A DNA stretch of 64,000 nucleotides from Auriscalpium vulgare (taxonomy: Eukaryota; Basidiomycota; Agaricomycetes; Russulales; Auriscalpiaceae), in NCBI GenBank assembly GCA_019915015.1, contig JAHBBC010000018.1, positions 620,001 to 684,000 of the forward strand. The letters are read 5' to 3'. Shown here one piece after another: positions 1 through 63,600 of this stretch. A program made the translations under genes and the position numbers. The notes beneath the pieces were generated by a model that saw only the letters and a program-made list of their open reading frames with translations, had not been told where the DNA came from and did no database searches. The first letter of the stretch is position 1; every line of letters begins with the position of its first letter.

Positions 1-1035
1 ATGCGATCACGCTTCGCTAATACACTTCATAAACGCATGTCGTTGGGTTTCGTTGTTTGACTTGTCGCACTTACGTCTCGCTTTTCTCATCACAATGGAC
101 CTGTCGTAATGGGAACAATAGAGGAGACATCAGAGGTACTGGATGGAGGGCGGACATAACACCGTGTTCACGAGTATTCAATTGTCGACCCACTTGTGGC
201 TTTGTGCTCTGCAACTTGCCTTCAGTCCCTCCGAGGACTTTCGACTTGGACCGTGCGGGCTGCATATCCTCACTCCCCTGAGGATCGTCTGACCTCAAAC
301 CCTAGCACTATGTCGAACGTTTTCACACACCCGACCTCAGACATTTCTTGGACTTGTTTTCGTCGTACGTGGCTCATCTCCGACAGTCGTTTTCGGCGAT
401 ACTCAACAATTCCGAACGGCGTGCTCTGATGCCACCCAGGAAGGGACCTTCGCCCGACCCTCGCGCCACATCGACGGCCCTTAAGGGCAGAAAGTTGGCT
501 ATAAGATTCCTAATGTGCGCGGAGGACGACCCTCACAGAAACTGGACGAGGGACGTGGACCCTCCTCGGTTGGATAACGGTTCACGCACGTCTGTCGGCG
601 TGGCGCGAGGTCGGCTCAGCGGCTACCCCCAGCTATGGAACTTGGCGGCGCATCGACCTCGGAGACGCTGGGGCGCAGGAGATGCGGCACGATCACAGTC
701 GCCGCGCTCCTCATGTTCCCAAATTCGGACTCTCTGCTCCTCGTCGGCGCTGATCTCATAAGTCGATTACTTCGACCGCGTCAAGGAACCGACGTCGGGG
801 GTCGTGGGACGATGGCGATTATATGCTGGGTCGTTCTCCTGTTCTGCCAGATCCCAGCCGAATAAATCACATTGTACGTGGATGATGAACCCCAAGTGAT
901 CCCGGCCTAATTTCCTTGGGCGGAGTCGCTCACCGTTGCGCGATCTGTCCATGTGTGGGCTTTATTTTGAGCTATGGACATCTCGAAGCGCTTCACGGTC
1001 TCCGACATCTGGAAGTCCGTGTTCCCCGGGGAAAC
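1..1035. other. Stretch without a recognisable intact gene
   Basis: No intact reading frame here resembles a protein I recognise. Several frames are open for 60-137 codons, but none shows a domain or a clean splice structure. The segment lies directly 5' of the decayed F-box-like gene that follows, so it may hold its eroded N-terminal exons; I cannot demonstrate that. Confidence 0.3.
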
Positions 1036-1971
1036 TGAGGGGTTCTGCAACGACCAATCCTCGGGGCCTGCAGGCATGGACTACCTGGAGTCCTCAAATT
1101 TTCACAGTTTTCCCCCTCCACGATGCACATTCCTGGCGATGACGCGCTGGCGCACCTGCGAACACTGGTCGCTCTACCGAATCTTGGGTACCTCGACTCA
1201 CCGTGCCCCCCCCCCCCCTGGATGACGCGTTGCGCCCATGTGCCCTAAATCATCTCCTTCTCCCTCCCGATGCAAGTCTCTTCGTCACGATCGCACGGAC
1301 ATGCCCCACGTGGGCCAGTCGGCAGGGAGCGGGTCCTGCCCATGTGAGGCCCCTCGCCAGCAATCTGGCTGAAGAATGCGACATAGACGACGACTGATGG
1401 GGATAACTAGGTTTAGCCGCAAGCCACGGGCCCCCAAGAGTGTATACTTTGCAGCCTTCAAGACAGTGGCCACAACTGGCATGAGTCCTCGATGTTGATA
1501 CACGTGGAGAACATCGTGACAGTGCATCCCCCTTTCTTGCGCGCGATAAACGCAGCAGTGCCGTGGGAGATTGTCACCAAACTTTGGTTGGCTTTCCCCC
1601 TTAGCCACGGCGATGTGTCGACTATCTTCCCTCGCGTTGCCAAACTCTGCCACCTCGCTCTGTACGAGTCGGAGACTGCAGCGCCCGTGCTCGGATTCAT
1701 GGCAACAAGGGATGCGTGCCACATTTCCGATACCGGCGAACAGCACGACCTTCTTCCCCAGCTTCTGAGCATCAGGATGGTGGATGTCGACTTCGACCAG
1801 GCGCAGCTCGCGAACGTGACTGCCTGGTGCAAACGACGCGTCTTGGCAGGAAAGGGATTGTCGGATCTTTTCCTCACCGACTGCTGCCACCAAGAACCAC
1901 TCTTGGCGTTGAGGGATATCGGCCCCTTGAACGTGACCATTTGTTCAACCACCACCGTTACTAGTACTTGA
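1036..1971 (+). pseudogene. Decayed F-box/LRR-type protein gene (C-terminal part)
   Basis: Two same-frame blocks look like the leucine-rich C-terminal half of a basidiomycete F-box-type protein. The first (about 1081-1207) contains DDALAHLRTLVALPNLGYLD, a typical 'L..L..LPNL..L' repeat. The second (1492-1971) contains LLSIRMVDVDF and ends in an LNVTI strand before its stop codon at about 1969. Between them lie a run of C residues (about 1207-1218), in-frame stop codons and no obvious intron, and no F-box is visible upstream. I infer a degraded gene. The assignment rests on repeat style only. An intact gene with a distant start and introns I could not place is possible but less likely. Confidence 0.4.
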
Positions 1972-2154
1972 TTATTCCCGATGCGTGTTTCTGTGTTTAC
2001 ATGTACTTCACATGAATGTTAATCATAGCAATTTGAATCTCTTGGGATGAAGAACAACACAGCTACTACTTAGTGGGAAGCTTAGTTCTACACATTCGCT
2101 TTACAACGGGCACGATGAGGTGTACCCGCGAAGACAAACCGTCTTGCGTCGTGG

Positions 2155-2698
2155 CTACTGCGTGACCGCCAACGTCAGGTTCTTGATCTCGAGCATGATA
2201 TACGGGCCCGCCTAAGACAAAACGCGTCAACTCGCGACTCGCTGATTGAAGAAAACGCTTCAACTCACCCCGACGAGCGCCAGATGCGTAATGGCCAGCT
2301 GCACCGGCCCACTCGTGAGCGTCGCAGGCACAGCGACCGTGAAATTCTGCTGGGGCTGGTCCGTCGGCGTGCGGTTCGACGGAAACTGTGGGTCGAAGCC
2401 GCCGCTGTAGAGCGTCGTGCCGAGCTGGCTGGCGGGGTCGGTGCACGAGCCCGTGCAGGCGAGGAGCGAGATTACGAGGGATACTTCTTGTGATGCCGTG
2501 AGGGAGTCCTGAGTTGCTTGTCAAGGAGGGCAGATGGAGGGACTCGGCGACGATGGAACGTACCGGGCGGAGGACTTGGATGGTTATATTGGTACCGGGC
2601 GTTAGAACGTCGCCATCGGCGGGCGTACCAATGGTGATGCTCTGAGAGTAGGCCATAGCGAGAAGGTATGCAAGAACAGTGAACAGAGCGAGTTTCAT
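2155..2698 (-). CDS. Small secreted protein, 143 aa, three exons
   Basis: Exons 2698-2564, 2508-2269 and 2211-2155 join in phase 0 at both introns (55 and 57 nt, GT-AG). The product starts MKLALFTVLAYLLAMAYSQS, a classic signal peptide with likely cleavage after the A/S-rich segment near residues 16-18. The mature part opens with SITIGTPADGD and a T/N-rich beta-type segment. It has two cysteines close together (LLACTGSC) and N-glycosylation-type sites (TNITI, QNFTV, KNLTL), and it ends in LEIKNLTLAVTQ. This matches the general form of the small secreted proteins common in wood-decay basidiomycetes, whose function is unknown. A TATA-like element lies about 95 bp upstream of the start codon. 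A continuous frame through the introns also exists, but it loses the conserved beta segments, so the spliced model is preferred. Confidence 0.8.
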
Positions 2699-2792
2699 GA
2701 TCACTGGAGATATGTGGTGCGGTGGGAGGTGTAAGATCGTGGCTTCGCGAGGAAGACGGGACAATGCAGCTTCAGGCGCGTTCAGAGCAGAG

Positions 2793-2799
2793 CTTATAT
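2793..2799 (-). promoter_or_regulatory. TATA-like box of the small secreted protein gene
   Basis: On the minus strand the sequence reads CATATAAGC, about 95 bp upstream of the start codon at 2698. The spacing suits a core promoter with a short leader. Predicted by position and consensus only. Confidence 0.45.
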
Positions 2800-3437
2800 G
2801 GGCGAAGATGTGGTGCGTAAGCATATTGAAGGGGAGCTTCGAGAGGCCATGGTTGTGCACGGGGCCAATGAAGAAGACAGCAATGGGGTCTGTGGCTCCT
2901 GGACCCGATGACGAGATGCACGGCCTTGACGGCGCATAGTCCGGCTTGGGAGAAGTGCATCTCAACTGCACAGCGTCATCGTACTTACTTCCATTACAGC
3001 GAACGAAGGGTGACCTCTTCCGATGACCGGACGAAGGACTACAGCGCACGTGTCGCGCTGCCCACCGACTCCACACGAAGCACTGTAGCCGGCGAAGATA
3101 CGGAACAAAACATATATGTGAGCTTCTCGAAAGTACTGACGGTGGGTCGTACGCCGCTGCTCTATCTTTCGACATTTCTCTCCTCGGCAAGCGCCGACTC
3201 GACACATGACAGTGTCCGCGCGCCTTCCTTCCAGAGGCCATCCTCCGTGCAATTGCAGTGCGGTGTACAAGGCGCGAGAAACAACGAGTCGGCGTATGAA
3301 TGGATTGAGTGGAACCAGAATTGATGAACGGAGGTTAGTCGTGGGTTTGATGATGACAGTCGTCGGAGGAGTGGGTCAACGAGATAAGGGCAAGGAAGAT
3401 GATGACAACCAGTACGACGACTCGGAGGACAAGGCAT
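2800..3437. other. Intergenic region between two minus-strand genes
   Basis: Contains the upstream region of the secreted protein gene and the 3' flank of the MYND gene. Only short open frames are present, none with recognisable features. Confidence 0.4.
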
Positions 3438-5585
3438 CTAGCAGATGGCAGTGTGGCCAGGTACAATTGACGATATTGCCGTTGAGGGCGCTGGATCTGA
3501 TGGGAATGAATAACCCCGATCGCTCACATAAGCCACAGCTGTGTCCACAATTCGGAAGTCTGACTCGCGCCGGCTCGTGTGCCCCCGGTCGGGCCAAACG
3601 GCCGGCGCAACCAGCGTTAAGAATATGGCCGTCTTCTCACCCAGGCTTGCCCAGCTCTCAATGAGCGTGGTGCGCCCCCGCCGCCTCGGATGGCTCGCCT
3701 TCGCCACGATGCTTTCCAACCGCGATCCTACGGCCTGTTTGATCTTGTCATCCTGACCGACGTGGCAATCACTGAGCCGGTAGAGACCAAGCTTGGGCAA
3801 GCCGGGACCGTTGAAGATAGTGTAGTTCACGAGGATACCAAGGTCTTCCAGAGCGATGTTAGGGTGGGGGCTCTCGCGCGCGCTCTCCAGTAGCGCGCTG
3901 AGGTGCCGTTGAACGTCGGAAATGACAAGCTGCAAATGAAAACGCCGATCCGGGGTAGCCAGTTCTTGCGGAATAGTCGACCACTCTGTCAGAAGGCCGG
4001 TCAGATCGACGAAGTGCAGACGCGTTGCATTCGACCTGCCTGTGTGGCGCGTGCATTCATGTTTGTGCAGCGAGTCCCATTCATGTCTCTGGCACGCTTC
4101 CGAGCAGTACGCGACGGAGCGACATCTGGCACAGCGCTTCAGCTTAGACCAGGGATAACGTGCCCGCACTGCATTTACGCAATCAATTTGCATACAAAGA
4201 CGGGAGCCTCTGAAACTACTCACGCAGTCGCAGTATCCAATATCTTGTGAGCCGTTACGTTGGCGGCGCTTGAGCGTCGAATACCGCAGCACGATCGTTG
4301 AAGTGTCCTTGAGAAGGGACCCAAGCTGCGACATTGGGGGACCATTCAGGAGGTTCTGCATACTTGGCTGGCGCATAGCACGAGCGACCGGCATGATGAC
4401 TGAGGAGTAGACATAGTATCGGGGGAGCATGTCGCGGACGATATCGATCATGGCCATCTGTGAGCCTTTCGGAATCCGATGAAAGACAGGGCTGAGGATG
4501 GTGAAGACATCGAGAAGACCGCCTTGAATGGCAGCCCGAATCCAGCAGGTGCCGGCACCAGTCTCGAGGACTTTGTGAAGGAATGTAAGGCAGAGGTTGG
4601 TCCTCACTGTGGCCCCGTTTAGGATTGCGTCGTCTGGATCGAAGAAGTACTTTGTGACGGAGATGGCGTTTCGGATGACAGCCCTGATGGCACCTCTGCG
4701 CAGCAGAGCGTCTCGAAGGATCGGCGACTTTTGGAAGGCGACCATGAGGACGACGTGACAATTGAAGAAAAGCATGTCGGTCTCGACCTCTGGGTCCGCG
4801 GGGGGTGGCTCTTCGAACGGACCAACCACGCGTGCTGCTATCTTGTCTGCGTCCTCCGAGCGTTCCAGACCGCCCACGCAGGCGACGAAGCGATCGATGA
4901 CGGTGTCGTCGTCGACACTCAGTACGGCGGCAAGGACAGACGCGCAAGCGGGCCGACGTCCTGGTTGCTTGGAGGGATCATCCTTCATCCAGAAGGACGT
5001 GAGGAGTTTCACCGACCCCGGCGAGTCGAGCACCAGCTTCCAGCCAGGAGTGTCCTTGAGAACCGGCCAAAGTGCCTGGCCAAGCATGGAGAAGAAGTCG
5101 TCCCGAAGATGGAGCTCTTCAGGTGCAGAGGAATGGAATTCCTCGAAAAAGAGGAACCATGCCCAGGTGATGGGCCATAACGCGGAAACATATTGCTCAC
5201 GACTGGATGGTGTCCCCATCGCGAAAACATAGAGATAGCAGGCAATGCCAAGGGACAGAAATGCCCGGTTGATGATCGATGTGAGGGCAACGGTAAGGGG
5301 GAGGGAGATAGGCAGCGAAGGGATGAGGGATGGACTGAGGTTGGACCACAGGAGGTCAGATACATCTCTAGTATGCTGGGCGGTTATCACGTCGCCATTC
5401 AAGGAGATTGCTTCGAGCATCTCGAGGGACCCTTCCTTGGCCATCTTCAAAGCCTGTGGGCCACCATCGGCGGTGCTTGTCAGCGTGTCGTCTCGATGCC
5501 ACCAGGCTGAGCGACGCACCTTGGCCGGCTTCGTGCGCAGAATCTTCTCCGCATGGGCGAGTGCTTCCTTCGGTGTTTTGAACAT
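3438..5585 (-). CDS. MYND-type zinc-finger protein, 715 aa
   Basis: A long uninterrupted frame. Residues 1-440 are alpha-helical and hydrophobic, without an enzyme motif I recognise. A MYND zinc finger sits at about residues 464-511: CMQIDC, then KLKRCARCRSVAYCSEACQR, then HEWDSLHKHEC, giving the C-C...C-C...C-C...H-C ligand set. MYND fingers are protein-interaction modules. Large families of about 600-700-aa proteins with one C-terminal-third MYND finger and an otherwise uncharacterised helical body are widespread in agaricomycetes, and their role is unknown. The start codon is the first ATG of the frame and opens MFKTPKEALAHAEKIL, a plausible N-terminus. A short stretch near residue 454 (YCDCVSSFRG) could hide a tiny intron, but the frame is open without one. 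Confidence 0.85.
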   Translation of the reverse strand: MFKTPKEALAHAEKILRTKPAKVRRSAWWHRDDTLTSTADGGPQALKMAKEGSLEMLEAISLNGDVITAQHTRDVSDLLWSNLSPSLIPSLPISLPLTVALTSIINRAFLSLGIACYLYVFAMGTPSSREQYVSALWPITWAWFLFFEEFHSSAPEELHLRDDFFSMLGQALWPVLKDTPGWKLVLDSPGSVKLLTSFWMKDDPSKQPGRRPACASVLAAVLSVDDDTVIDRFVACVGGLERSEDADKIAARVVGPFEEPPPADPEVETDMLFFNCHVVLMVAFQKSPILRDALLRRGAIRAVIRNAISVTKYFFDPDDAILNGATVRTNLCLTFLHKVLETGAGTCWIRAAIQGGLLDVFTILSPVFHRIPKGSQMAMIDIVRDMLPRYYVYSSVIMPVARAMRQPSMQNLLNGPPMSQLGSLLKDTSTIVLRYSTLKRRQRNGSQDIGYCDCVSSFRGSRLCMQIDCVNAVRARYPWSKLKRCARCRSVAYCSEACQRHEWDSLHKHECTRHTGRSNATRLHFVDLTGLLTEWSTIPQELATPDRRFHLQLVISDVQRHLSALLESARESPHPNIALEDLGILVNYTIFNGPGLPKLGLYRLSDCHVGQDDKIKQAVGSRLESIVAKASHPRRRGRTTLIESWASLGEKTAIFLTLVAPAVWPDRGHTSRRESDFRIVDTAVAYVSDRGYSFPSDPAPSTAISSIVPGHTAIC

Positions 5586-5858
5586 GGACGTGGATGTGGA
5601 GAAAGGTCAAGGTGTACAGGATGAAGGTAGTGTCCTGGAAGCGGCGGTCGATGCAGTCGATGGCCCATTGATTGTCGATCCAAAGTGTTGAACAATGTTA
5701 TGAACAAAGGAAGACAATGGGCTGTACAGCAATCACGTGCGGCGGCAGTACTTCGCGGACAGTAAGTTACTGACAGCGTTTGCTCATGACTTCGCATCTT
5801 ACAATCACAGGCCAAAGTACATCCATATTCCATCCATCCATCCCTATACCAGTCAGAT

Positions 5859-11947: not shown

Positions 11948-12544
11948 GTTGAGCGCAAGCAGATTGAAAGAAGATGGGGGGAAGAGACGGACCTACGCAG
12001 GCTCTCGAGACAGGCTTTTAAGCAGGATTTCCGGCCACAGACCTGGAGGGTGTGGCCGTGCAGGACAATGGAGGTCGGGACTACGGACCCGCGTGCCAAG
12101 CTGAACCGTGAACGCGTGCCAGATTTGCATCACGTGTCCGTCACTGCACACGGCCCGCCCCGCCGTCACGGCAACTCAAGTCTTCATCGTCGCGCTCGAC
12201 GTTGACGTCAACGGCGACTCTATGTCACTCGCTCCTCCGACTCTCATTCCGCGCCCGCTGCTCTTCCCCGCCGCGTTGTTTGGCTCGCGGACGGGCGACA
12301 AACACCGCACACGGCGCGTCCAATCACAGCGCGCGCTGCTGTCGCGTCCAGCAATAAATCGACGTGTATTCTCGTTGCTACAGCCCGCAGGGCCGCAAGC
12401 ACGCCCCCGCACCAAGCCGCGCGCATACAACCCAAGTCCCATGGCCCCCACGCCTTGCCTTCCTCGCCGTCGCGCACTCCCGCTCCCTCGTCTCTGCCCG
12501 CATCGACGCACTGACCGGTGGTCCTGCTCCTCGCCGAAGAATCG

Positions 12545-24759: not shown

Positions 24760-24767
24760 CCGCCCCG
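24760..24767. repeat. Left target-site duplication of unit 2 hAT
   Basis: CCGCCCCG directly before the TIR. Confidence 0.95.
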
Positions 24768-24787
24768 TAGTGTTGCGGGAAAAACCT
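24768..24787 (+). repeat. Left terminal inverted repeat, unit 2 hAT
   Basis: Twenty bases pair with the right end at 30078-30097 with one mismatch at position 4. Confidence 0.95.
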
Positions 24788-24805
24788 CTGGCCAGTATCC
24801 CCCCG

Positions 24806-24858
24806 GTAAGGTACCGGTGGCGCTCCTAGCCGGGGAGGTATCAAACCGGTACCGTACC
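24806..24858. repeat. Left subterminal GGTACCGG-type motifs of hAT (unit 2)
   Basis: GGTACCGGT and CCGGTACCGTACC occur within 90 bp of the left end. Similar motifs lie near the right end (TGTACCGGG at about 29,984 and GGTACCGGTAC at 30022-30032). Subterminal repeats in hAT elements often bind the transposase; that role is inferred here. Confidence 0.55.
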
Positions 24859-25146
24859 AGGGAAATAGTCACGTGATGTTTAGTTCCCACGCAGTAGCAG
24901 CTCGATTTTCGCGTACACACGAGGATTTGGAATGGTTTCAATGCATCAGATGAAGATTTAGCAGTGTATGTATCCATAGCCAAATTGCCAGAGCTTAGCC
25001 GTAGGTGCCCCGACCTGTACGAATTCGCTGCTGCCTGCTACACAAGTGTCATGATTTGTCAGCAGACGCGGCTTTTGCAAGGCTGCCGCAGCACTCGAGC
25101 GTACATTGTAACAACGCGTACAATACATACTGAAACCTCGGGAGGC

Positions 25147-28100
25147 TTATTGAAACAAGGCATCTGTGCTGAAATCATTGTCCTCTTCATCAGAATCTGG
25201 TATGCTCTCGTCCCTAGCCTGACCTGCACTGACTCCGACAGCAGGGTTCCGACGTGCAGGAAGCTGAGCTTCCTCCGCGAGGACATCAGATAAAATTGCA
25301 GACCTCAGGTTGATGTGAGGCATCTTGATGAAAGCATTGGCAGGTTCGTACGGTTCTGCCAGGTCTTCACCTTGAACGTCATTGTCGTCATTGTCGTCTT
25401 CTTCGTCCGACATCGGTGCGGGTGCGTTTTCTGAAGAGGGGAATACCTTCTTTTCGATGTTGTAGAACTTGACCGAAGGGAATTGATTAGTGTGCGCGCG
25501 CACCTGCTCGAATGGTTGGAACACTGTGTACTTCAATAAAGAACGGAGGTTGCTTACCTTGCTCTTAGACATGTGGTACTGTCGGACTTGAGTCATTGCA
25601 GACATGTTATGCACGGATAGCCGATTCCTATGCTTTGGAGTAAGCCATGTGAATGTAGAGCCAGTCCGTTCATCGGGCATGGAGTTGACTCGGACGGAAT
25701 ACAGTTTGATAGCGAGATGCTATTCATGACAGCATCAGTCGGCAGCGCTCGGTGAATCATACGGACACGAACACGTACCGGAAGGATGTGCACATTATCA
25801 GAGCCAACACGGCCCTTCCACCACTTAAGGACCGCCTGCGGAACCGTATCGTCGAGCGGATGATCGAATGGGAACTGGTGTCGAGCATAGGCTAGAGTTT
25901 CCCTGTGAAGTTGGGCTGTAAATGATTTCCCTTTTTTTGCCCACTTCAAGAATGCCTTCTTATGGCCATGAACGATCTCTTTCTCTCCGATGTTGGCTAA
26001 GAAGCGGACAACGGACTCGAAAATTGATGGATGCCGAACACCAATGAGTGTCACCTTCTCGCCTTCCGGTAGCCACAGGTCCGACGTGATAAGATCTGAT
26101 TGATGCACACATAAGACAGCGACGAGATGCAAGCAAAAGAATGGCTCTAACCAGGGTTCAGATATGCTGCAGCAAGGTATGCATTATTAGCTATGTTGCC
26201 ATCCAGAAAGAGTTGGCGATGTCGCGCATTGAGGATGCCGCGGATGGCGTTCGCGACCTCAGCGTCAAAATACAGCCTAGGATTTTGAAAGGCGTCCTCT
26301 GTTGCACGAATAACAGCATGCCAGAATATATAGACGTCGGCAGCAGTTGCCTCCAGAGCCTCCAGGCAGGCTAATGCCTTTGTTGCAGGCAAAGTGGCCG
26401 CGATGAACTGGGAGAGACCAGACTCGAACTTGAATGTCTGGTGATCATCCGGTGCAGGCTGAAAATACTCAGCAATTTCCTGCGAATGTTGTCAGCAAGT
26501 CATTTCGTCTAGTCGATCCATCAATTGTACCTCATAAAGTCCGTTAGGCGATTCACGGATGACTTTCTTGATCGCAGCTGAGGACCGATGGACAGAGCGA
26601 GCAGAGAGCGGGATTGTTGCGAATCTCGTCTTTCCGATAGCCTCCAGGCCGCGTCCTGTCTTTAGTTTTTCACGAGCTTTCTTGAGGGCTGCATGTCCAG
26701 CGTGCGAGGTATGAAATAATGTTATTGTCTGCCGCACCACACGGATGATCTGGTTGCGGATTAGATCTGATTAATGCTGGTAGTGTGGACGTTTGCGCAC
26801 CGGTTTGAAAACATCAATGAGATTAATCTCAAGGATTGTGCGATTCAAGTGATGGCAAACATCCGCAAGATTGAGCGCAGTGGGCATGAGGGCCAGAATT
26901 GCAATGGAACGCGAGGCTCGCGTGTTACCCGTGCTATCACATGTCAGGCCGGAAAACCTGGACGGACCGATGGCATTGACAATCTGCGCGAAGTTGTTAG
27001 AAATTGCTGAAGTAGTTAAGTTCCAATGCCCACGCACCGGACTTGCGACATTCTCAACGATCCAAGGTGCAGTGTGCGACTCGGAAGTTGCCTCCCGTGT
27101 GTCCATCAAGTATACTTCACGGTCTGAGGTCGAGACGTGTACAGTCCAGTAGGACTCACGACCTGTCGAAGTTCCGCCGTCATAGGAGAGAGTGAGGTCT
27201 TCCTGACCTTGCAGATACTTGAGTTGCTCCCGGCGGACCCACGATGCTTCGTTTACGATGCCTTCATATTCGAGCTTGTCTCTGGTTGAAGGTGCATATG
27301 ATGGTAAGGCAATCTCAAGCATCTCCTTCCACTCCGGGCGCGAGACGATATATGTTGGCAAACCCGCGACGCATATGAGTTTAAGAATGGCAAGGTCGAG
27401 CTTTCTGTGACGCTCGAGCTTCCCAAGCGCCTTTGCTTGCCGAAAGAACGCATGTGTCGCGGCGCCTGCATCTTGCTTCTCCCCATCTTGTCCAATTCCA
27501 TCTTGAGCTCCTAGTTCCTTCGCAACCATCATGGATCCTTTCGAATTGGTGAGCTCCTGGACCTGCGCAGACAGTGCCTTTCCAGCTGAATGTATGTGCA
27601 CTTTCTCCCGCAGCTCTGAGGACAGCTTGGGGCAGTCCTTTGCATGACGAACGACTCGGATCAACGCTCGATGTCGGAAAGTATGATGGCAAGGGTTATC
27701 AGGACCTCCGACACAGCGCCAGAGCAGCGTAGTTGGATTGTCGCGGCGATAGCAAGCCTCGGTGAGAGCGTCCATCAGAGGATCCGGCGGCCGTCCTCCC
27801 CGGCGCGCATCCTTCTTCGGCTGCACCCATTTGACAAGGTCACCAGGGTTAAGCTCAATCTCCATGTCGCTCCCATCTTCTTCCCCCATCTCGTTCACAT
27901 ACGGAGCTGCGCCGTCCGCAACTCCTTCGGCATCTGATTTCTGTTCATCGAGCTGCTGGTCTTGCAGTACCGGTGAACTACTAGGCTGCTTGTGCGTAGC
28001 GACTGTGTTTCCGCCCGAACGCTTTGCAACCTGTAAGCAAAGCTTCTGTTACTTACTGCTGTCGCGCGCTGACAACCTCTTTGGGCACTTACAGTTGACG

Positions 28101-29664
28101 TTCCAGCAATATGCAGATTCAACGGCGCCGGTTTGAAGACCTCGTCCCACTGCTGCTTGCTCCCCGCATTGCCGGAACTCTCCGCCGGTTCCTTTCCTTT
28201 CGAAGCGGCATTTTTCTTCGTGCGTTTGGCTGGCACGGTGAGTGGCGTGACATTGGTGGCTACACTCAGTCGCCTCTTAACGACGCCTTCTAGACTCAAT
28301 AACTGCGGCTTCGTGAACGCCGATGTGTGCGCACTTGCCCGTATAAGCATGCCAGGCGCTAGCATATTGGACTTGTATTTGAGACTGTCCTGCACTGTCG
28401 GTGAGTCGAGTCCGCAAGTAAGTGAAGCTGAGCGCGCACTGACCATGTCACGTAGGTAACACATTATGTCAGCAAGGTGTCGAATGCGTTGCACGACACA
28501 GTCTGTATCCGAGAGGAGATGGATGTCGTCGGGGATGAGATGGTGAGCAAGAGAATTGTGGCTGAGGACAGAGCAGGAGAAGCTGTCGAGCTGTGGGGTG
28601 CATGGTAACACGTTGAGTGAAAGCGGCCCAGTCGCTCCGTGTTGTCCTAACCACCATTCTATCATCTCCAACAGCTCGCGGGGCGGCTTCCGTCCAAGAG
28701 AATCAGCATAGAAAGCCGTGTGTGGCTCTACGCTGATCGCAACGGACACCCAGTGATTTGTCTCGTGTACGGCTGCTGGCAAGAGCACATCCGCGCCATC
28801 GATCCGCACCCCGATCGTCATTCCAACCTCCTTGAGTGATCCATCTTGCAGCTGCGAGCCAGCCAATCGTAGGGGAGTGATGCCGCGCATTGATTGGTAA
28901 GATGTTCCGCTAGCATTGAGTCGTGCGCGGTTGCGGTACGTGTCAATGAGCTTGACTGATGCCGCACTCGGCAGTATACATGCCGGCTTGCCTTGTCTTT
29001 GCAGACGATGACCTAGCAGCATCCCCAGCTGATCCATATGCTCCGCCGCCAGCCAACGCCGACCACAGTACGATGTAAGCGTCTTTGGATCGACGCCCAT
29101 CGTCGTTGGGAGGGGTACGTCCCATGGCCAGTCGTCGAGGAGTGCTGACGTGTCTGCAGCAAGGGACTTCACCTCGTCGTTGAGCAAGCCCTCGGTCCAA
29201 GTCTTCAACCACGCAGTGGCCAGAGAAAGGCGCGCCTTGGCAGCGAGTATGCGCCGGACCTCGTACCAGTAGGTGAGAACCCACATCGGGGTTTTGAGTG
29301 TTTGTTGAGTGACCGACTCTTGAACAGGATAGCCCAGGCAAGCATAGCCTGTCTCTAGGGCGGGGATGACGCGGTTTTGCAGGATTTCCAACACCTCGGT
29401 GTGCGGCGGCATCGGCCTAGAGAGCAGGACCATTGCATTTGCGGCCGTTATGAAGCTTTGGCCCTTCGAGAAGAGTGTGCTCTGCTGGAGCAGAGACGGC
29501 GCGTTCGCCTCCGGTGGGACAGGGAAATTTTGGATATCGGCATTGCGCAGGGCTGGTGTGGGTAGTAGGACATGTTTAATGTCGTCGGGAATGGGTATTC
29601 TTTTGAGGATATCACCCAGAGTTTGAAATGAGTCGATGTCGTGGATGACCTCGTCGTCCGCCAT
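25147..29664 (-). CDS. Ulp1-protease/hAT transposase fusion, about 1,394 aa (unit 2 copy)
   Basis: Exons 29664-28093, 28030-26801, 26749-26531, 26479-26152, 26095-25779, 25719-25558 and 25503-25147 keep one frame through introns of 51-62 nt. Residues 1-524 hold a Ulp1/C48-type cysteine-protease domain: RRWLAAEHMDQLGMLLGHR, ETNHWVSVAI (H304), FYADSLG (D321) and CTPQLDSFSCSVLSHN (Q358, C364). Exon 2 adds a linker, a BED-like finger (WRCVGGPDNPCHHTFRHRAL, then HAKDC) and the hAT core (LTLSYDGGTS, LTCDSTGNTR, LADVCHHLNR). Later exons carry LACLEALEATAADVYIFWHA, then NARHRQLFLDGN and AAYLNP. The hAT dimerisation-type C-terminus reads LAIKLYSVRVNSMPDERTGS, then TFTWLTPKHRNRLSV. An acidic tail (MSDEEDDNDDN) follows. 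The last intron (54 nt) may be retained, giving 1,412 aa. hAT transposases excise and integrate DNA; the protease might remove SUMO from host or self proteins (inference). Confidence 0.85.
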
Positions 29665-30066
29665 TTGACAGTTTTGAGGGTTGGCAAAATGTGCTAGGCC
29701 AGTGTCGAAGGTGAAGATTGCGCCCTCATTTAGTCACTCACTACGGAGTGTAAATGTCGATCACAGCAACGGGTCGATCATACACACGTTGCTGCATACA
29801 ACACTCTTGCAACTATCCCATGCCGAGGCGGGATGTGTCTAATACCTCCTTAAACATCCGCGTAGCATTGCACAACCACCTTACGACTGCCGGCCATGTC
29901 TGCGTGCGAGGCTGCGAGCCTCATGGCTCATGGGCCGGCGCCGGGCGCCGGAGGGGCCGACACACATCACGTGCTGGAGGTATTGTACCGGGTATATTGG
30001 GGCCCAGGGCAGGGCAGGTATGGTACCGGTACTATACAGGTACATTACCGGGGAAAAACGTTTTCG

Positions 30067-30088
30067 GGGAAAAACTCAGGTTTTTCCC
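30067..30088. repeat. Hairpin at the right end of hAT (unit 2)
   Basis: GGGAAAAAC and GTTTTTCCC are separated by 4 nt. The inner arm lies partly in the TIR, so the right end can form a local hairpin with a TIR-like sequence. Same structure at 47987-48008 in unit 3. Confidence 0.6.
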
Positions 30089-30097
30089 GCAACGCTA
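30078..30097 (-). repeat. Right terminal inverted repeat, unit 2 hAT
   Basis: Partner of the left end. The equivalent pair in unit 3 is 42698-42717 and 47998-48017. Confidence 0.95.
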
Positions 30098-30105
30098 CCG
30101 CCCCG
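30098..30105. repeat. Right target-site duplication of unit 2 hAT
   Basis: CCGCCCCG directly after the TIR; occurs once at the empty sites in units 1 and 4. Confidence 0.95.
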
Positions 30106-42689: not shown

Positions 42690-42697
42690 CTGCACAG
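42690..42697. repeat. Left target-site duplication of unit 3 hAT
   Basis: CTGCACAG directly before the TIR. Confidence 0.95.
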
Positions 42698-45600
42698 TAG
42701 TGTTGCGGGAAAAACCTCTGGCCAGTATCCCCCCGGTAAGGTACCGGTGGCGCTCCTAGCCGGGGAGGTATCAAACCGGTACCGTACCAGGGAAATAGTC
42801 ACGTGATGTTTAGTTCCCACGCAGTAGCAGCTCGATTTTCGCGTACACACGAGGATTTGGAATGGTTTCAATGCATCAGATGAAGATTTAGCAGTGTATG
42901 TATCCATAGCCAAATTGCCAGAGCTTAGCCGTAGGTGCCCCGACCTGTACGAATTCGCTGCTGCCTGCTACACAAGTGTCATGATTTGTCAGCAGACGCG
43001 GCTTTTGCAAGGCTGCCGCAGCACTCGAGCGTACATTGTAACAACGCGTACAATACATACTGAAACCTCGGGAGGCTTATTGAAACAAGGCATCTGTGCT
43101 GAAATCATTGTCCTCTTCATCAGAATCTGGTATGCTCTCGTCCCTAGCCTGACCTGCACTGACTCCGACAGCAGGGTTCCGACGTGCAGGAAGCTGAGCT
43201 TCCTCCGCGAGGACATCAGATAAAATTGCAGACCTCAGGTTGATGTGAGGCATCTTGATGAAAGCATTGGCAGGTTCGTACGGTTCTGCCAGGTCTTCAC
43301 CTTGAACGTCATTGTCGTCTTCTTCGTCCGACATCGGTGCGGGTGCGTTTTCTGAAGAGGGGAATACCTTCTTTTCGATGTTGTAGAACTTGACCGAAGG
43401 GAATTGATTAGTGTGCGCGCACACCTGCTCGAATGGTTGGAACACTGTGTACTTCAATAAAGAACGGAGGTTGCTTACCTTGCTCTTAGACATGTGGTAC
43501 TGTCGGACTTGAGTCATTGCAGACATGTTATGCACGGATAGCCGATTCCTATGCTTTGGAGTAAGCCATGTGAATGTAGAGCCAGTCCGTTCATCGGGCA
43601 TGGAGTTGACTCGGACGGAATACAGTTTGATAGCGAGATGCTATTCATGACAGCATCAGTCGGCAGCGCTCGGTGAATCATACGGACACGAACACGTACC
43701 GGAAGGATGTGCACATTATCAGAGCCAACACGGCCCTTCCACCACTTAAGGACCGCCTGCGGAACCGTATCGTCGAGCGGATGATCGAATGGGAACTGGT
43801 GTCGAGCATAGGCTAGAGTTTCCCTGTGAAGTTGGGCTGTAAATGATTTCCCTTTTTTTGCCCACTTCAAGAATGCCTTCTTATGGCCATGAACGATCTC
43901 TTTCTCTCCGATGTTGGCTAAGAAGCGGACAACGGACTCGAAAATTGATGGATGCCGAACACCAATGAGTGTCACCTTCTCGCCTTCCGGTAGCCACAGG
44001 TCCGACGTGATAAGATCTGATTGATGCACACATAAGACAGCGACGAGATGCAAGCAAAAGAATGGCTCTAACCAGGGTTCAGATATGCTGCAGCAAGGTA
44101 TGCATTATTAGCTATGTTGCCATCCAGAAAGAGTTGGCGATGTCGCGCATTGAGGATGCCGCGGATGGCGTTCGCGACCTCAGCGTCAAAATACAGCCTA
44201 GGATTTTGAAAGGCGTCCTCTGTTGCACGAATAACAGCATGCCAGAATATATAGACGTCGGCAGCAGTTGCCTCCAGAGCCTCCAGGCAGGCTAATGCCT
44301 TTGTTGCAGGCAAAGTGGCCGCGATGAACTGGGAGAGACCAGACTCGAACTTGAATGTCTGGTGATCATCCGGTGCAGGCTGAAAATACTCAGCAATTTC
44401 CTGCGAATGTTGTCAGCAAGTCATTTCGTCTAGTCGATCCATCAATTGTACCTCATAAAGTCCGTTAGGCGATTCACGGATGACTTTCTTGATCGCAGCT
44501 GAGGACCGATGGACAGAGCGAGCAGAGAGCGGGATTGTTGCGAATCTCGTCTTTCCGATAGCCTCCAGGCCGCGTCCTGTCTTTAGTTTTTCACGAGCTT
44601 TCTTGAGGGCTGCATGTCCAGCGTGCGAGGTATGAAATAATGTTATTGTCTGCCGCACCACACGGATGATCTGGTTGCGGATTAGATCTGATTAATGCTG
44701 GTAGTGTGGACGTTTGCGCACCGGTTTGAAAACATCAATGAGATTAATCTCAAGGATTGTGCGATTCAAGTGATGGCAAACATCCGCAAGATTGAGCGCA
44801 GTGGGCATGAGGGCCAGAATTGCAATGGAACGCGAGGCTCGCGTGTTACCCGTGCTATCACATGTCAGGCCGGAAAACCTGGACGGACCGATGGCATTGA
44901 CAATCTGCGCGAAGTTGTTAGAAATCGCTGAAGTAGTTAAGTTCCAATGCCCACGTACCGGACTTGCGACATTCTCAACGATCCAAGGTGCAGTGTGCGA
45001 CTCGGAAGTTGCCTCCCGTGTGTCCATCAAGTATACTTCACGGTCTGAGGTCGAGACGTGTACAGTCCAGTAGGACTCACGACCTGTCGAAGTTCCGCCG
45101 TCATAGGAGAGAGTGAGGTCTTCCTGACCTTGCAGATACTTGAGTTGCTCCCGGCGGACCCACGATGCTTCGTTTACGATGCCTTCATATTCGAGCTTGT
45201 CTCTGGTTGAAGGTGCATATGATGGTAAGGCAATCTCAAGCATCTCCTTCCACTCCGGGCGCGAGACGATATATGTTGGCAAACCCGCGACGCATATGAG
45301 TTTAAGAATGGCAAGGTCGAGCTTTCTGTGACGCTCGAGCTTCCCAAGCGCCTTTGCTTGCCGAAAGAACGCATGTGTCGCGGCGCCTGCATCTTGCTTC
45401 TCCCCATCTTGTCCAATTCCATCTTGAGCTCCTAGTTCCTTCGCAACCATCATGGATCCTTTCGAATTGGTGAGCTCCTGGACCTGCGCAGACAGTGCCT
45501 TTCCAGCTGAATGTATGTGCACTTTCTCCCGCAGCTCTGAGGACAGCTTGGGGCAGTCCTTTGCATGACGAACGACTCGGATCAACGCTCGATGTCGGAA

Positions 45601-48017
45601 AGTATGATGGCAAGGGTTATCAGGACCTCCGACACAGCGCCAGAGCAGCGTAGTTGGATTGTCGCGGCGATAGCAAGCCTCGGTGAGAGCGTCCATCAGA
45701 GGATCCGGCGGCCGTCCTCCCCGGCGCGCATCCTTCTTCGGCTGCACCCATTTGACAAGGTCACCAGGGTTAAGCTCAATCTCCATGTCGCTCCCATCTT
45801 CTTCCCCCATCTCGTTCACATACGGAGCTGCGCCGTCCGCAACTCCTTCGGCATCTGATTTCTGTTCATCGAGCTGCTGGTCTTGCAGTACCGGTGAACT
45901 ACTAGGCTGCTTGTGCGTAGCGACTGTGTTTCCGCCCGAACGCTTTGCAACCTGTAAGCAAAGCTTCTGTTACTTACTGCTGTCGCGCGCTGACAACCTC
46001 TTTGGGCACTTACAGTTGACGTTCCAGCAATATGCAGATTCAACGACGCCGGTTTGAAGACCTCGTCCCACTGCTGCTTGCTCCCCGCATTGCCGGAACT
46101 CTCCGCCGGTTCCTTTCCTTTCGAAGCGGCATTTTTCTTCGTGCGTTTGGCTGGCACGGTGAGTGGCGTGACATTGGTGGCTACACTCAGTCGCCTCTTA
46201 ACGACGCCTTCTAGACTCAATAACTGCGGCTTCGTGAACGCCGATGTGTGCGCACTTGCCCGTATAAGCATGCCAGGCGCTAGCATATTGGACTTGTATT
46301 TGAGACTGTCCTGCACTGTCGGTGAGTCGAGTCCGCAAGTAAGTGAAGCTGAGCGCGCACTGACCATGTCACGTAGGTAACACATTATGTCAGCAAGGTG
46401 TCGAATGCGTTGCACGACACAGTCTGTATCCGAGAGGAGATGGATGTCGTCGGGGATGAGATGGTGAGCAAGAGAATTGTGGCTGAGGACAGAGCAGGAG
46501 AAGCTGTCGAGCTGTGGGGTGCATGGTAACACGTTGAGTGAAAGCGGCCCAGTCGCTCCGTGTTGTCCTAACCACCATTCTATCATCTCCAACAGCTCGC
46601 GGGGCGGCTTCCGTCCAAGAGAATCAGCATAGAAAGCCGTGTGTGGCTCTACGCTGACCGCAATGGACACCCAGTGATTTGTCTCGTGTACGGCTGCTGG
46701 CAAGAGCACATCCGCGCCATCGATCCGCACCCCGATCGTCATTCCAACCTCCTTGAGTGATCCATCTTGCAGCTGCGAGCCAGCCAATCGTAGGGGAGTG
46801 ATGCCGCGCATTGATTGGTAAGATGTTCCGCTAGCATTGAGTCGTGCGCGGTTGCGGTACGTGTCAATGAGCTTGACTGATGCCGCACTCGGCAGTATAC
46901 ATGCCGGCTTGCCTTGTCTTTGCAGACGATGACCTAGCAGCATCCCCAGCTGATCCATATGCTCCGCCGCCAGCCAACGCCGACCACAGTACGATGTAAG
47001 CGTCTTTGGATCGACGCCCATCGTCGTTGGGAGGGGTACGTCCCATGGCCAGTCGTCGAGGAGTGCTGACGTGTCTGCAGCAAGGGACTTCACCTCGTCG
47101 TTGAGCAAGCCCTCGGTCCAAGTCTTCAACCACGCAGTGGCCAGAGAAAGGCGCGCCTTGGCAGCGAGTATGCGCCGGACCTCGTACCAGTAGGTGAGAA
47201 CCCACATCGGGGTTTTGAGTGTTTGTTGAGTGACCGACTCTTGAACAGGATAGCCCAGGCAAGCATAGCCTGTCTCTAGGGCGGGGTTGACGCGGTTTTG
47301 CAGGATTTCCAACACCTCGGTGTGCGGCGGCATCGGCCTAGAGAGCAGGACCATTGCATTTGCGGCCGTTATGAAGCTTTGGCCCTTCGAGAAGAGTGTG
47401 CTCTGCTGGAGCAGAGACGGCGCGTTCGCCTCCGGTGGGACAGGGAAATCTTGGATATCGGCATTGCGCAGGGCTGGTGTGGGTAGTAGGACATGTTTAA
47501 TGTCGTCGGGAATGGGTATTCTTTTGAGGATATCACCCAGAGTTTGAAATGAGTCGATGTCGTGGATGACCTCGTCGTCCGCCATTTGACAGTTTTGAGG
47601 GTTGGCAAAATGTGCTAGGCCAGTGTCGAAGGTGAAGATTGCGCCCTCATTTAGTCACTCACTACGGAGTGTAAATGTCGATCACAGCAACGGGTCGATC
47701 ATACACACGTTGCTGCATACAACACTCTTGCAACTATCCCATGCCGAGGCGGATGTGTCTAATACCTCCTTAAACATCCGCGTAGCATTGCACAACCACC
47801 TTACGACTGCCGGCCATGTCTGCGTGCGAGGCTGCGAGCCTCATGGCTCATGGGCCGGCGCCGGGCGCCGGAGGGGCCGACACACATCACGTGCTGGAGG
47901 TATTGTACCGGGTATATTGGGGCCCAGGGCAGGGCAGGTATGGTACCGGTACTATACAGGTACATTACCGGGGAAAAACTTTTTCGGGGAAAAACTCAGG
48001 TTTTTCCCGCAACGCTA
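42698..48017 (-). mobile_element. hAT-superfamily DNA transposon, unit 3 copy, 5,320 bp
   Basis: Same terminal repeats, but flanked by a different 8-bp duplication, CTGCACAG. It differs from the unit 2 copy by a 9-bp in-frame deletion in the last exon, a 1-bp deletion near 47,750 outside the gene, and scattered substitutions. Confidence 0.95.
43077..47585 (-). CDS. Ulp1-protease/hAT transposase fusion (unit 3 copy)
   Basis: Same exon plan and no stop or frameshift. Visible amino-acid differences from the unit 2 copy are N46D, I100N, V308I, I310V and a Pro-to-Ser change in the linker. A three-residue in-frame loss shortens the acidic tail repeat. H304, D321, Q358, C364 and the hAT motifs are unchanged. 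An independent insertion with an intact gene argues that the fusion is functional rather than a chance read-through. Confidence 0.85.
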
Positions 48018-48025
48018 CTGCACAG
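48018..48025. repeat. Right target-site duplication of unit 3 hAT
   Basis: CTGCACAG directly after the TIR, followed by TGCACACGGCC, which resumes the spacer. Confidence 0.95.
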
Positions 48026-60611: not shown

Positions 60612-63600
60612 ACACGGCCCGCCCCGCCGTCACGGCAACTCAAGTCTTCATCGACGTTAACGTCAACGGCGACTCTATGTCACTCGCTCCTCCGACTCTC
60701 ATTCCGCGCCCGCTGCTCTTCCCCGCCGCGTTGTTTGGCTCGCGGACGGGCGACAAACACCGCACGCGGCGCGTCCAATCACAGCGCGCGCTGCTGTCGC
60801 GTCCAGCAATAAATCGACGTGTATTCTCGTTGCTACAGCCCGCAGGGCCGCAAGCACGCCCCCGCACCAAGCCGCGCGCATACAACCCAAGTCCCATGGC
60901 CCCCACGCCTTGCCTTCCTCGCCGTCGCGCACTCCCGCTCCCTCGTCTCTGCCCGCATCGACGCACTGACCGGTGGTCCTGCTCCTCGCCGAAGAATCGC
61001 CTGTCAACAAGCTGGCTGCCTGTCGATGCCGCCCACCGCCGCTCTCGACGAAGCGCACCCCCATCTGCGCAGCGCCGTCGTCCCCGTCCTGCACAAGCGT
61101 CCCCTGCGCATCAGATGGCACGGTGCCGACGGGAACGTGTGAGCACGACGCATATCCCTATCCATGGCCGAAAAAACTCATCTCCCGTCCGATAGCAGTT
61201 GCGCCCGCGCCGTCATCAACTTGCCTGTCGATGCCTCTCGACGAAAGACGCCGCCATTGCGCAGCGCCGTCGGCCGCCGGCGCGCTCGCACGAATCGGCC
61301 GGTGCCCTCTCGACGCGCCGCCCTCCGTCTTGCGCGCGCAACAACTTCCTGTGCAACGTCGGCACGCGACCTCGACACGCATGATGATGGCTTACCTCGC
61401 ACGGCACAACGACGCGCTGCGTGCCGCCCGCAGACCCCGCTGTCGCTCGCGTTCGCACCCTGCGAGACAAGACGACGTGTGCGACGCGTGCGACGCGGCC
61501 TGGGTCCCTCTCGACACGAACAGCGCTGTGCGCGGCACGCCCTGCAGCGTCCACTTCAACGTCAGCATTCGAGCCCGACGGCTGCGATAATGACTCACCA
61601 CAAATCCGCGTGGTATGCGGCGCCGACCCGCTCTATTCGCACGCAGCCGACCGCCTTCAACACGACGCAGCTGCGCCCGGGCCGACGGTTACCGTCGTCA
61701 AGATGGCTGCCTGTCGATGCAGCGCACCTCTCGACGAGGCACATCGCCATCTGCACAGCGCCGCGCCGTCCTGCACAAGCTCACCACGGCGTCAGCTCAC
61801 CTCAGAAGCACGCCGACGACAAACGGACATACCTCACGCGCGCGCACCCGTCCCCGTGACGAACACGCTGCACCGCCGACCGCGTCATCTCCATTCCCCG
61901 GACGGCGCAGTGGGCTTGACCGAGAGCAGCGGAGCCGCCCGTTTCTTGGCCGCCGCAGGCTCGCACAGCCCTTCTCGACGAAGAGCGCCGTCCGTGCTCC
62001 GCGCTGCGTGCCGCTGCTTGCAACCAGCATCCTGTCCAACGTCAGCTCTCGACTCGACAACTACGACAAGAGCTTACCTCACAAGGAAGTCCGCTCGATA
62101 TGCAACGCGCTCGCCCGGCGTCCAGCGCCTCGCGCTGACCCTGCCGGCCTCGCACGCTGCGAGGGAAGACGAGGCGCGCCAACACCCGCGCATCTCGTGC
62201 ACCGTCGGACCACACGACGTCCTGGGGACCGGATCAGTGAGTACTTGCATGTGTACTGCTTTCACCGTGCTTGACTGACCGCAGCGTCCGCAGCGATCCT
62301 GCGCCCTGGCATGAAAGTTCCGTCAGCATCGGCCCTCGCGCAGCAAGCTGAGGACGTCCCTACCTGAAGCAGCACGACGCGCATACTCAAGCCTCGGGTC
62401 CTTGAGCTAAACAGTGAGTACTCACCCATATGTTCTTCGACAATGCCCGTTACTCACGGCGCCCGCGCGTGCCAGCGTCCTGCTCAAAACCACGACGACA
62501 TCAGATTCACGGCCTCAAGAAGGACCAGGACGAGATGCGTACCTTATGCAGACGCAAGCCCTGCGCCAGGAAGAACATCGAGCACCCAGCGCGGCACGCA
62601 CCGTCGACGCTGGAACGGCACGCTGGCGTGTTGTTGACGAGCTGCGCGACCATGAGCGGGATCCGCACAGTGAAGGGTTCGACCGGGCCTGGACAATGCG
62701 CACATCGAGCCCATGGAGTCTGGGCAAAGTAGGTAGAGTCATAATGTCTCCTTGTGCGAAATATAGCAACGACGTACCGCCGTCTTCGTGCAGAGCGAGC
62801 GAGTGCGCATGGCGCTGTCGAATCCTGGATGAAATGCGAAGGCTCATGAGTAAGGCGCCGGTCTAGCGCATGGGCATTCCTGCACGCGCAGCCCACTCAC
62901 CTTTGTCCGCGTGTATGGCTCACGTTATGGCTACAGACAGAACATCAAAGCCAATTCCCGACAAGCAAGAAAGCAAACGTACCTCTCAGCTGTAGCCTCG
63001 ATACGGAACGATGGAACATGCAAGCGAGTGCCTCCGCCATCTGCGCCCGGCCAACAGCTCATCAGCAGACTATCTGGCATGAAGATCGTGCTGGACGGAC
63101 CTCACCCTCGACGGACGCATTGTCAACGCCGCACAACGAGCACGCCTGGCGCAGCAACGCCGGGCCGAGCGCTGGGCACGGATCCTCTCGATACGACGCA
63201 GCCTGGACGGGCGGCTGTGAGCGACGTGAGCGCGGGAGAGCAGTGGAACCGACGCGCCTGTTGCCGGTGATATGTGCGCTGGGGCTCCTGTACGACATCG
63301 CACGTCGAGCGGTGGCTCGCGTAGCCACAGAGTCTAGTCAGAACGGTCAGCCCGACGTATTTTAAAAATACAGGAGCGACCCACTGATGCACAGCGCTGG
63401 TAGTTCATGAGTGCGGCCTGCCCATGACGCCAGCTTACCCACGTCCGCAGCGCACCTACCTCAATGGCGGTCCTTGCGCAACAAACGCGCCGTCGTCCTG
63501 AGAGGCACGAGCGGCCTAGTCAGCTCTCTAGGATGTGTCGAGAAGACAAAGACATACCGGAGTCGGCCGCAGCGAGCCGCGGCGCATCCTAATGCTGCTG

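Follow-up and report, generated by a model that had tools for sequence, protein, structure and literature searches.

The hAT superfamily of DNA transposons, exemplified by Ac, Tam3, hobo and Hermes, depends on a transposase that binds the element ends, cuts the element out and reinserts it, and we know of no protease in ordinary hAT elements. Here we describe an element in a 64,000-nucleotide stretch of the Auriscalpium vulgare genome (contig JAHBBC010000018.1, positions 620,001 to 684,000; the whole stretch is hereafter the window) in which a hAT transposase is predicted to be fused to an N-terminal protease domain resembling the SUMO (small ubiquitin-like modifier) protease Ulp1. Ulp1 domains have been described in plant Mutator and CACTA elements (PMC2528002) and within the Ginger1 transposase (PMC2836005), in agreement with an earlier annotation made from the letters of the window alone (the original prediction), which noted such domains alongside other DNA transposons. 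Like the present element, Ginger1, the Mutator-like elements (MULEs) and CACTA are DNA transposons with an Ulp1-type protease, but they belong to other transposase families, the Ginger1 protease is C-terminal and some MULEs carry the protease on the opposite strand (PMC2836005, PMC2528002). The oomycete Cryptons share a C48 peptidase within a mobile element and differ in carrying a tyrosine recombinase, not a DDE transposase (PMC3212892). For all such Ulp1-type domains, roles have been proposed without a reported test in the accessible parts of this literature.

Among plants, classes IX and XI of the cotton zf-BED genes have the architecture Zf-BED-DUF-Dimer_Tnp_hAT-Peptidase_C48, are reported from Gossypium only and are treated as Zf-BED genes (PMC9296551). 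These classes resemble the present element in placing a hAT dimerisation domain and a C48 domain in one gene model, but their C48 domain is C-terminal, i.e., the order is reversed; the original prediction, which knew of no hAT fusion of this kind, needs this qualifier (PMC9296551). The fungal hAT MarorhAT-10 differs from our element in being 3,396 bp long and carrying DUF659 and hATC, and the word “protease” occurs nowhere in the accessible text of its description (PMC9674265). “Ulp1”, “SUMO” and “protease” each occur 0 times in the accessible main text of a study of fungal hATs with TET/JBP genes (PMC12730594), and the available parts of PMC6416283, PMC12062965, PMC2868825, PMC10175614, PMC5240378, PMC5821449 and PMC10138897 contain nothing on a hAT-Ulp1 protein. 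Within the literature covered, from which most subscription papers are missing so that absence is not proven, we recognised no report of a fungal hAT with an Ulp1-type protease. Ulp1 domains in transposons being already known, what we take to be new here is the protease-first order, the hAT class, the demonstrated element structure, the recent movement and the conservation in Schizophyllum commune (Agaricales).

The element is complete and 5,330 bp long (24768..30097, with its gene on the minus strand), as delimited by terminal inverted repeats (TIRs), an 8-bp target-site duplication (TSD), empty sites and 20 genomic copies examined. The 20-bp TIRs, TAGTGTTGCGGGAAAAACCT at 24768..24787 and TAGCGTTGCGGGAAAAACCT (read on the minus strand) at 30078..30097, match at 19 of 20 bases, with one mismatch, and start TAGTG and TAGCG, in line with the hAT consensus start TA(A/G)NG. 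The TSD CCGCCCCG stands on either side, at 24760..24767 and 30098..30105 (TIRs, TSDs and target sites are given without strand). The window holds a second copy (42698..48017, minus strand; 5,320 bp, 99.6% identical) that carries 10 substitutions relative to the first, lacks 9 nt of the acidic tail in frame, shows a 1-nt gap ahead of the ATG, and has an 8-bp TSD of its own, CTGCACAG (42690..42697 and 48018-48025). Both copies lie in a 12.6-kb tandem repeat (9691-64000, on contig C18), where a fungal-type kinase gene (Pkinase_fungal, PF17667, 45.5 bits) adjoins the insertion site. The target region is seen four times in the window, twice occupied by the element copies and twice empty, once in an adjacent repeat unit (12155..12162, flank from 12128) and once at 60619..60626 (flank from 60592); the empty sites are the locus as it appears without the element. 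Genome-wide, the exact target flank occurs six times, always on C18.

The origin of the second copy by tandem amplification alone was considered and rejected, because its TSD differs from that of the first copy and lies 11 bp away. Its flank reads CTGCACAG/TGCACAC where the empty units have CTGCACAC. Ordinary hAT excision follows a hairpin route and leaves flanking breaks, and an insert with the TSD CTGCACAC leaving by that route would be expected to produce CTGCACA-G-TGCACAC; the sequence beside the second copy may, on the strength of this one site, be a footprint recording that an insert once left from this position. As a separate observation, two independent insertions (24760 and 42690) 11 bp apart in different array units, together with this footprint-like trace, possibly mark a local insertion hotspot.

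The genome searched is the 51.6-Mb assembly of 96 contigs that contains the window. At the DNA level, 28 copies covering query bases 1-5326 were scored among 87 candidates, and 20 were fetched (L021-L040, L021 being the window’s own copy). Eighteen of these 20 are mutually identical; the window copy departs from those 18 in two places, and one further difference is found in L040. A perfect 8-bp TSD, as is typical of hATs, flanks 19 of the 20, in 19 different sequences, and L032 has none. The terminal pattern TAGNGTTGCGGGAAAAACC matches the genome 74 times on each strand (74+74), against 0 matches for the backward control pattern. With identical copies at scattered sites and intact duplications, the element has moved recently. 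Many protease and transposase rows in the genome search break frame, and the notion of frameshifted subfamilies was rejected, as L048, L051 and L054 depart from the common sequence in single missing bases only (in L051 and L054 the sole change is one G missing from a G run; L048 has eight single-base gaps and 0 mismatches). Assembly error is the simpler explanation and likely accounts for the broken appearance of these three loci; L047 and L049 each have 14 mismatches and numerous gaps, some of which may reflect genuine decay.

The gene is predicted to comprise eight exons separated by seven GT-AG introns of 51-62 nt on the minus strand, encoding 1,376 aa without an internal stop. Exon 1 (28093..29664), an uninterrupted open reading frame (ORF) of 524 codons, covers residues 1-524 with an N-terminal helical region, the Ulp1-like protease and the first part of a linker; exon 2 (27038..28030; residues 525-855) carries the rest of the linker, a GGR motif, a BED-like finger and the start of the transposase core; and exon 3 (26801..26983; residues 856-916) carries the region of the second Asp (CDSTGNT) and the motif VCHHLN. 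Exons 4 (26531..26749; residues 917-989), 5 (26152..26479; residues 990-1099, codon 1099 being split by an intron), 6 (25779..26095; up to residue 1204) and 7 (25558..25719; residues 1205-1258) follow, and exon 8 (25147..25503; residues 1259-1376 plus the stop, at 25147) encodes an acidic tail. Intron 1 (28031..28092, 62 nt, GTAAGT...ACAG) bridges the protease exon to the transposase exon, and, as originally predicted, removal of 28092-28031 joins exon 1 in frame to the transposase frame. Beyond this bridging intron the prediction had counted four more and a possible sixth; six further introns were found (27037-26984, 26800-26750, 26530-26480, 26151-26096, 25778-25720 and 25557-25504), so the prediction fell one or two introns short. 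With intron 1 retained, the open frame would continue to 27895 (27895-28092) and yield a protease-only protein of 589 aa; such retention is a possible switch to a protease-only product.

The case for a fusion does not depend on one intron, since a second family in the same genome and proteins of S. commune also support the join. The second family, L050 (contig C24), is separate from the first, its protease being ~36% and its transposase, exon by exon, ~38-67% identical to that of the window gene. In a comparison by eye, its introns 2-6 coincide or nearly coincide in position with those of the window gene, and its protease-transposase intron (3089-3137) falls directly after the protease domain. 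The motif GNAGSKxxWDxVF is upstream of intron 1 and continuous with the protease in the window gene and downstream of the intron and continuous with the transposase in L050, and by this opposite placement the two families bridge the halves from both sides. In the L050 model the third exon starts 3 nt past the nearest AG, which costs one residue and leaves the frame unaffected; an exact 14-mer inverted-repeat scan found no TIRs at L050.

Relatives with the same order of domains, the search for which the original prediction had suggested, were found in S. commune, where P0001 (1,257 aa) and P0002 (1,091 aa) are single database proteins colinear with the window protein over both halves. Both are database gene predictions (named “ribonuclease H-like domain-containing protein” and “hypothetical protein” by NCBI), with 29% identity to the window protein in the protease half and 37% in the transposase half for P0001, and 27% and 37-39%, respectively, for P0002, which lacks ~70 transposase residues. 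They resemble the window protein in keeping the same order end to end and the same four protease residues. They are the only two relatives returned by the protein database searches, some of which scored only ~8,000 candidates each, so that absence elsewhere means little. Together with the PF17667 kinase next to the element, these relatives suggest a basidiomycete host.

Within A. vulgare, a transposase lies downstream on the same strand at 72 of 73 protease loci, with a spacing of exactly 62 nt at 58 of the 72 (86/86 protease rows and 107/108 transposase rows were entered, each clustering into 73 loci); these are mostly copies of one element, and the figure counts copies rather than independent cases. 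The linkage shows that protease and transposase travel together, and a joint origin many times over does not follow from it. The sole transposase locus left unpartnered, on C24, is that of L050, with its own diverged protease. The proposal that protease and transposase form one predicted gene is upheld by the in-frame join, the intron placement in L050 and the colinear S. commune proteins, and we are all but certain that the anatomy is that of a hAT element with one predicted spliced gene for an N-terminal Ulp1-like protease and a transposase.

The Ulp1-like catalytic region spans residues 200-407 (28444..29067, minus strand). His304 (codon 28753..28755), Asp321 (28702..28704), Gln358 (28591..28593, presumably the oxyanion-hole residue) and Cys364 (28573..28575), all encoded on the minus strand, are present as originally described; they are identical in all four aligned proteins (window, L050, P0001 and P0002), occur in the same order as in Ulp1 and align with those of the solved yeast structure (1euv). 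PF02902 scores above its cut-off of 20.7 bits in L050 (30.3 bits) and P0001 (26.3 bits). A profile of the catalytic regions of the window protein and L050 with the protease halves of P0001 and P0002 (A4), compared with solved structures, placed SENP2 (7.9e-5) and yeast Ulp1 (8.8e-5) first, the Ulp1 alignment spanning all four catalytic residues. At E<=1, A4 retrieved 27 solved sequences, the top 21 of which are named SENP, Ulp1, XopD, Dub or membrane thiol protease; the 22nd is a “conserved membrane protein” and the last five have unrelated names. All 13 sequences retrieved by a broader profile (A3) are named Ulp1, SENP2, XopD, Dub or membrane thiol protease. These matches came from profiles only, phmmer with exon 1 alone giving 0 matches to solved structures at E<=1. 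We think it rather likely that the domain is an active protease for a ubiquitin-like protein (Ubl).

The genome has further PF02902 loci on C12 and C3, which read like an ordinary Ulp1 and Ulp2, and, apart from these and L050, a weak match at L046 (C11, 91658-91768; 25.5 bits). About two dozen genome loci carry a distantly related protease. At one of them, L055:553-3288, the protease is 20-26% identical over the longer matches. Behind it come a long linker and a CxxC-H-C motif resembling a finger, and nothing there matches the window hAT transposase; the protease may have been shared between element types.

In the transposase half, the hAT C-terminal dimerisation region (PF05699; residues 1184-1251, 25579..25841, minus strand, spanning intron 6) scores 22.1 bits in the transposase fragment and 21.0 in the full protein, borderline against a cut-off of 21.4, and DUF659 matches in P0001 and P0002 fall below the DUF659 cut-off. 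D808 of YDGGT, the Asp of (C/A)D(S/N)TGNT and the Glu of MP(D/E)E(R/H)T, which we take from Hermes to have the D/D/E roles, are aligned in all four proteins. The BED-like finger of the original prediction stands as a C..C..H..C pattern kept in all four, with no Pfam zf-BED match. A transposase profile from three of the four relatives (A5) matched none of the solved structures at E<=10. By its 8-bp TSDs and TAGNG ends the element is a hAT; the borderline hATC region and the putative D and E positions also resemble those of the superfamily.

The reading we favour, though we hold it to be about evenly poised, is that of a recently mobile hAT whose fused Ulp1-like protease would strip SUMO or a related tag and thereby favour transposition. 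The transposase would bind the element ends, cut and reinsert as in other hATs, and the protease, predicted on the same chain, would be carried with it to the ends and the target. There it would free the transposase itself, or neighbouring chromatin or other host proteins, of SUMO or a similar tag, lifting the silencing or inhibition that keeps the element still. The escape from SUMO-dependent silencing suggested in the original prediction would be one form of this. Splicing and the protease fold are predicted features, and protease activity and its action on proteins held near by the transposase would follow only by extension; that the protease counters inhibition we rate somewhat below even. 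The boldest form of the idea, a mushroom hAT lineage in which every transposase would be a tethered deSUMOylase that undoes SUMO-based silencing or inhibition at the cut site, so that the activity would be obligate and would help to explain the genome-wide burst, we put forward tentatively. The alternatives considered below partly overlap, and their probabilities and that of the favoured reading do not add up to one.

Several observations count against the favoured reading. The L050 gene has one premature stop. On the window protein PF02902 reaches 14.0-15.7 bits, short of the cut-off, which is why we name the domain “Ulp1-like” and do not file it as C48, and P0002 has no PF02902 match at E<=1. 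Where Ulp1 has Gly directly following its catalytic Cys, the window protein and L050 have Ser. AlphaFold2 models of window exon 1 (A1) and P0002 (A2), from three-sequence alignments, are of low confidence (mean predicted local distance difference test, pLDDT, 34.0 and 33.9), and the strand-strand-helix-strand-Cys-helix order was seen in a model of mean pLDDT only 34. The relatives L052 and L053 are 1.35 kb long, with the same 19-bp termini (TAGTG/TAGGG), ends 84-89% similar and a match confined to the ends; L053 has an 8-bp duplication, GCCTGCCC, and L052 none at its ends. Neither is long enough for both genes, and the duplication at L053 implies that movement does not require the protease gene on the mobile DNA itself, whichever transposase acts; the two relatives fit a protein acting in trans and do not decide between the readings.

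Among the alternatives, the one that survives best, and overlaps with the favoured reading, is a CE-clan protease that acts on ubiquitin, NEDD8 or another tag rather than SUMO. The tag would not be settled by sequence, since Dub1, a deubiquitinase and deneddylase, scores in A3 and does so ahead of Ulp1 (0.0029 vs 0.011), which also weakens the favoured reading; A4, trimmed mostly to the catalytic region, puts SENP2 and Ulp1 first, and we consider a tag other than SUMO possible but rather unlikely. We find it unlikely, too, that the protease acts, while the element is excised and the gap repaired, on DNA-repair factors of the host and not on silencing or the transposase. The breaks left beside hAT excision sites and the footprint-like CTGCACA-G-TGCACAC speak for such a role, but such a footprint is usual for hATs and the sequence gives no hint of repair proteins. 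A role in repair has been proposed for the Ulp1 and OTU domains of transposases (PMC2836005).

A protease that is an inactive or dispensable passenger would suit the low PF02902 score of the window protein and the 1.35-kb relatives, which cannot carry it. The catalytic residues are nevertheless kept in all four proteins although the relatives are only 27-38% identical to the window protein, and the protease is present in both families of this genome and in S. commune. Differences between the window and L050 proteases (379 codons) fall 174/146/249 on the three codon positions, with proportions of nonsynonymous and synonymous differences of pN 0.44 and pS 0.69, a constraint test that is qualitative only, and to that extent a further weakness, as dS is saturated between the two. 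The same third-position excess is seen in the transposase, and this bias suggests selection on the protease protein; we judge the passenger quite improbable. Still less probable is a self-cutting polyprotein in which the protease would cleave a Gly-Gly between the halves and free the transposase. CE-clan proteases do cut after Gly-Gly, and GGR precedes the finger in all four proteins (RRGGR in the window protein and L050, KKGGR and SKGGR in the S. commune pair), downstream of a linker that is scarcely alignable, but RGGRP resembles an AT-hook-like DNA-binding motif, which would explain the conservation. That the element makes separate protease and transposase messages, as retention of intron 1 with its 589-aa product ending at 27895 would allow, is the least credible alternative given the different intron position in L050, the single colinear predicted proteins of S. 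commune and the exact in-frame join.

Elsewhere in the window, outside the array, a 722-aa ORF at 3441-5606 has a MYND finger (PF01753, 34.3 bits), and Rfam gave no match within the window.

Ulp1-type domains recur with unrelated mobile elements, namely Mutator, CACTA, Ginger1 and Crypton, and the present element extends this list to the hATs, with a lineage whose protease-first order is conserved between two fungal genomes. Because the predicted protein unites protease and transposase, and the element encoding it is compact, present in many identical copies and known with its ends and its empty sites, mutation of the single catalytic Cys could probe the part that tag removal plays in transposition.

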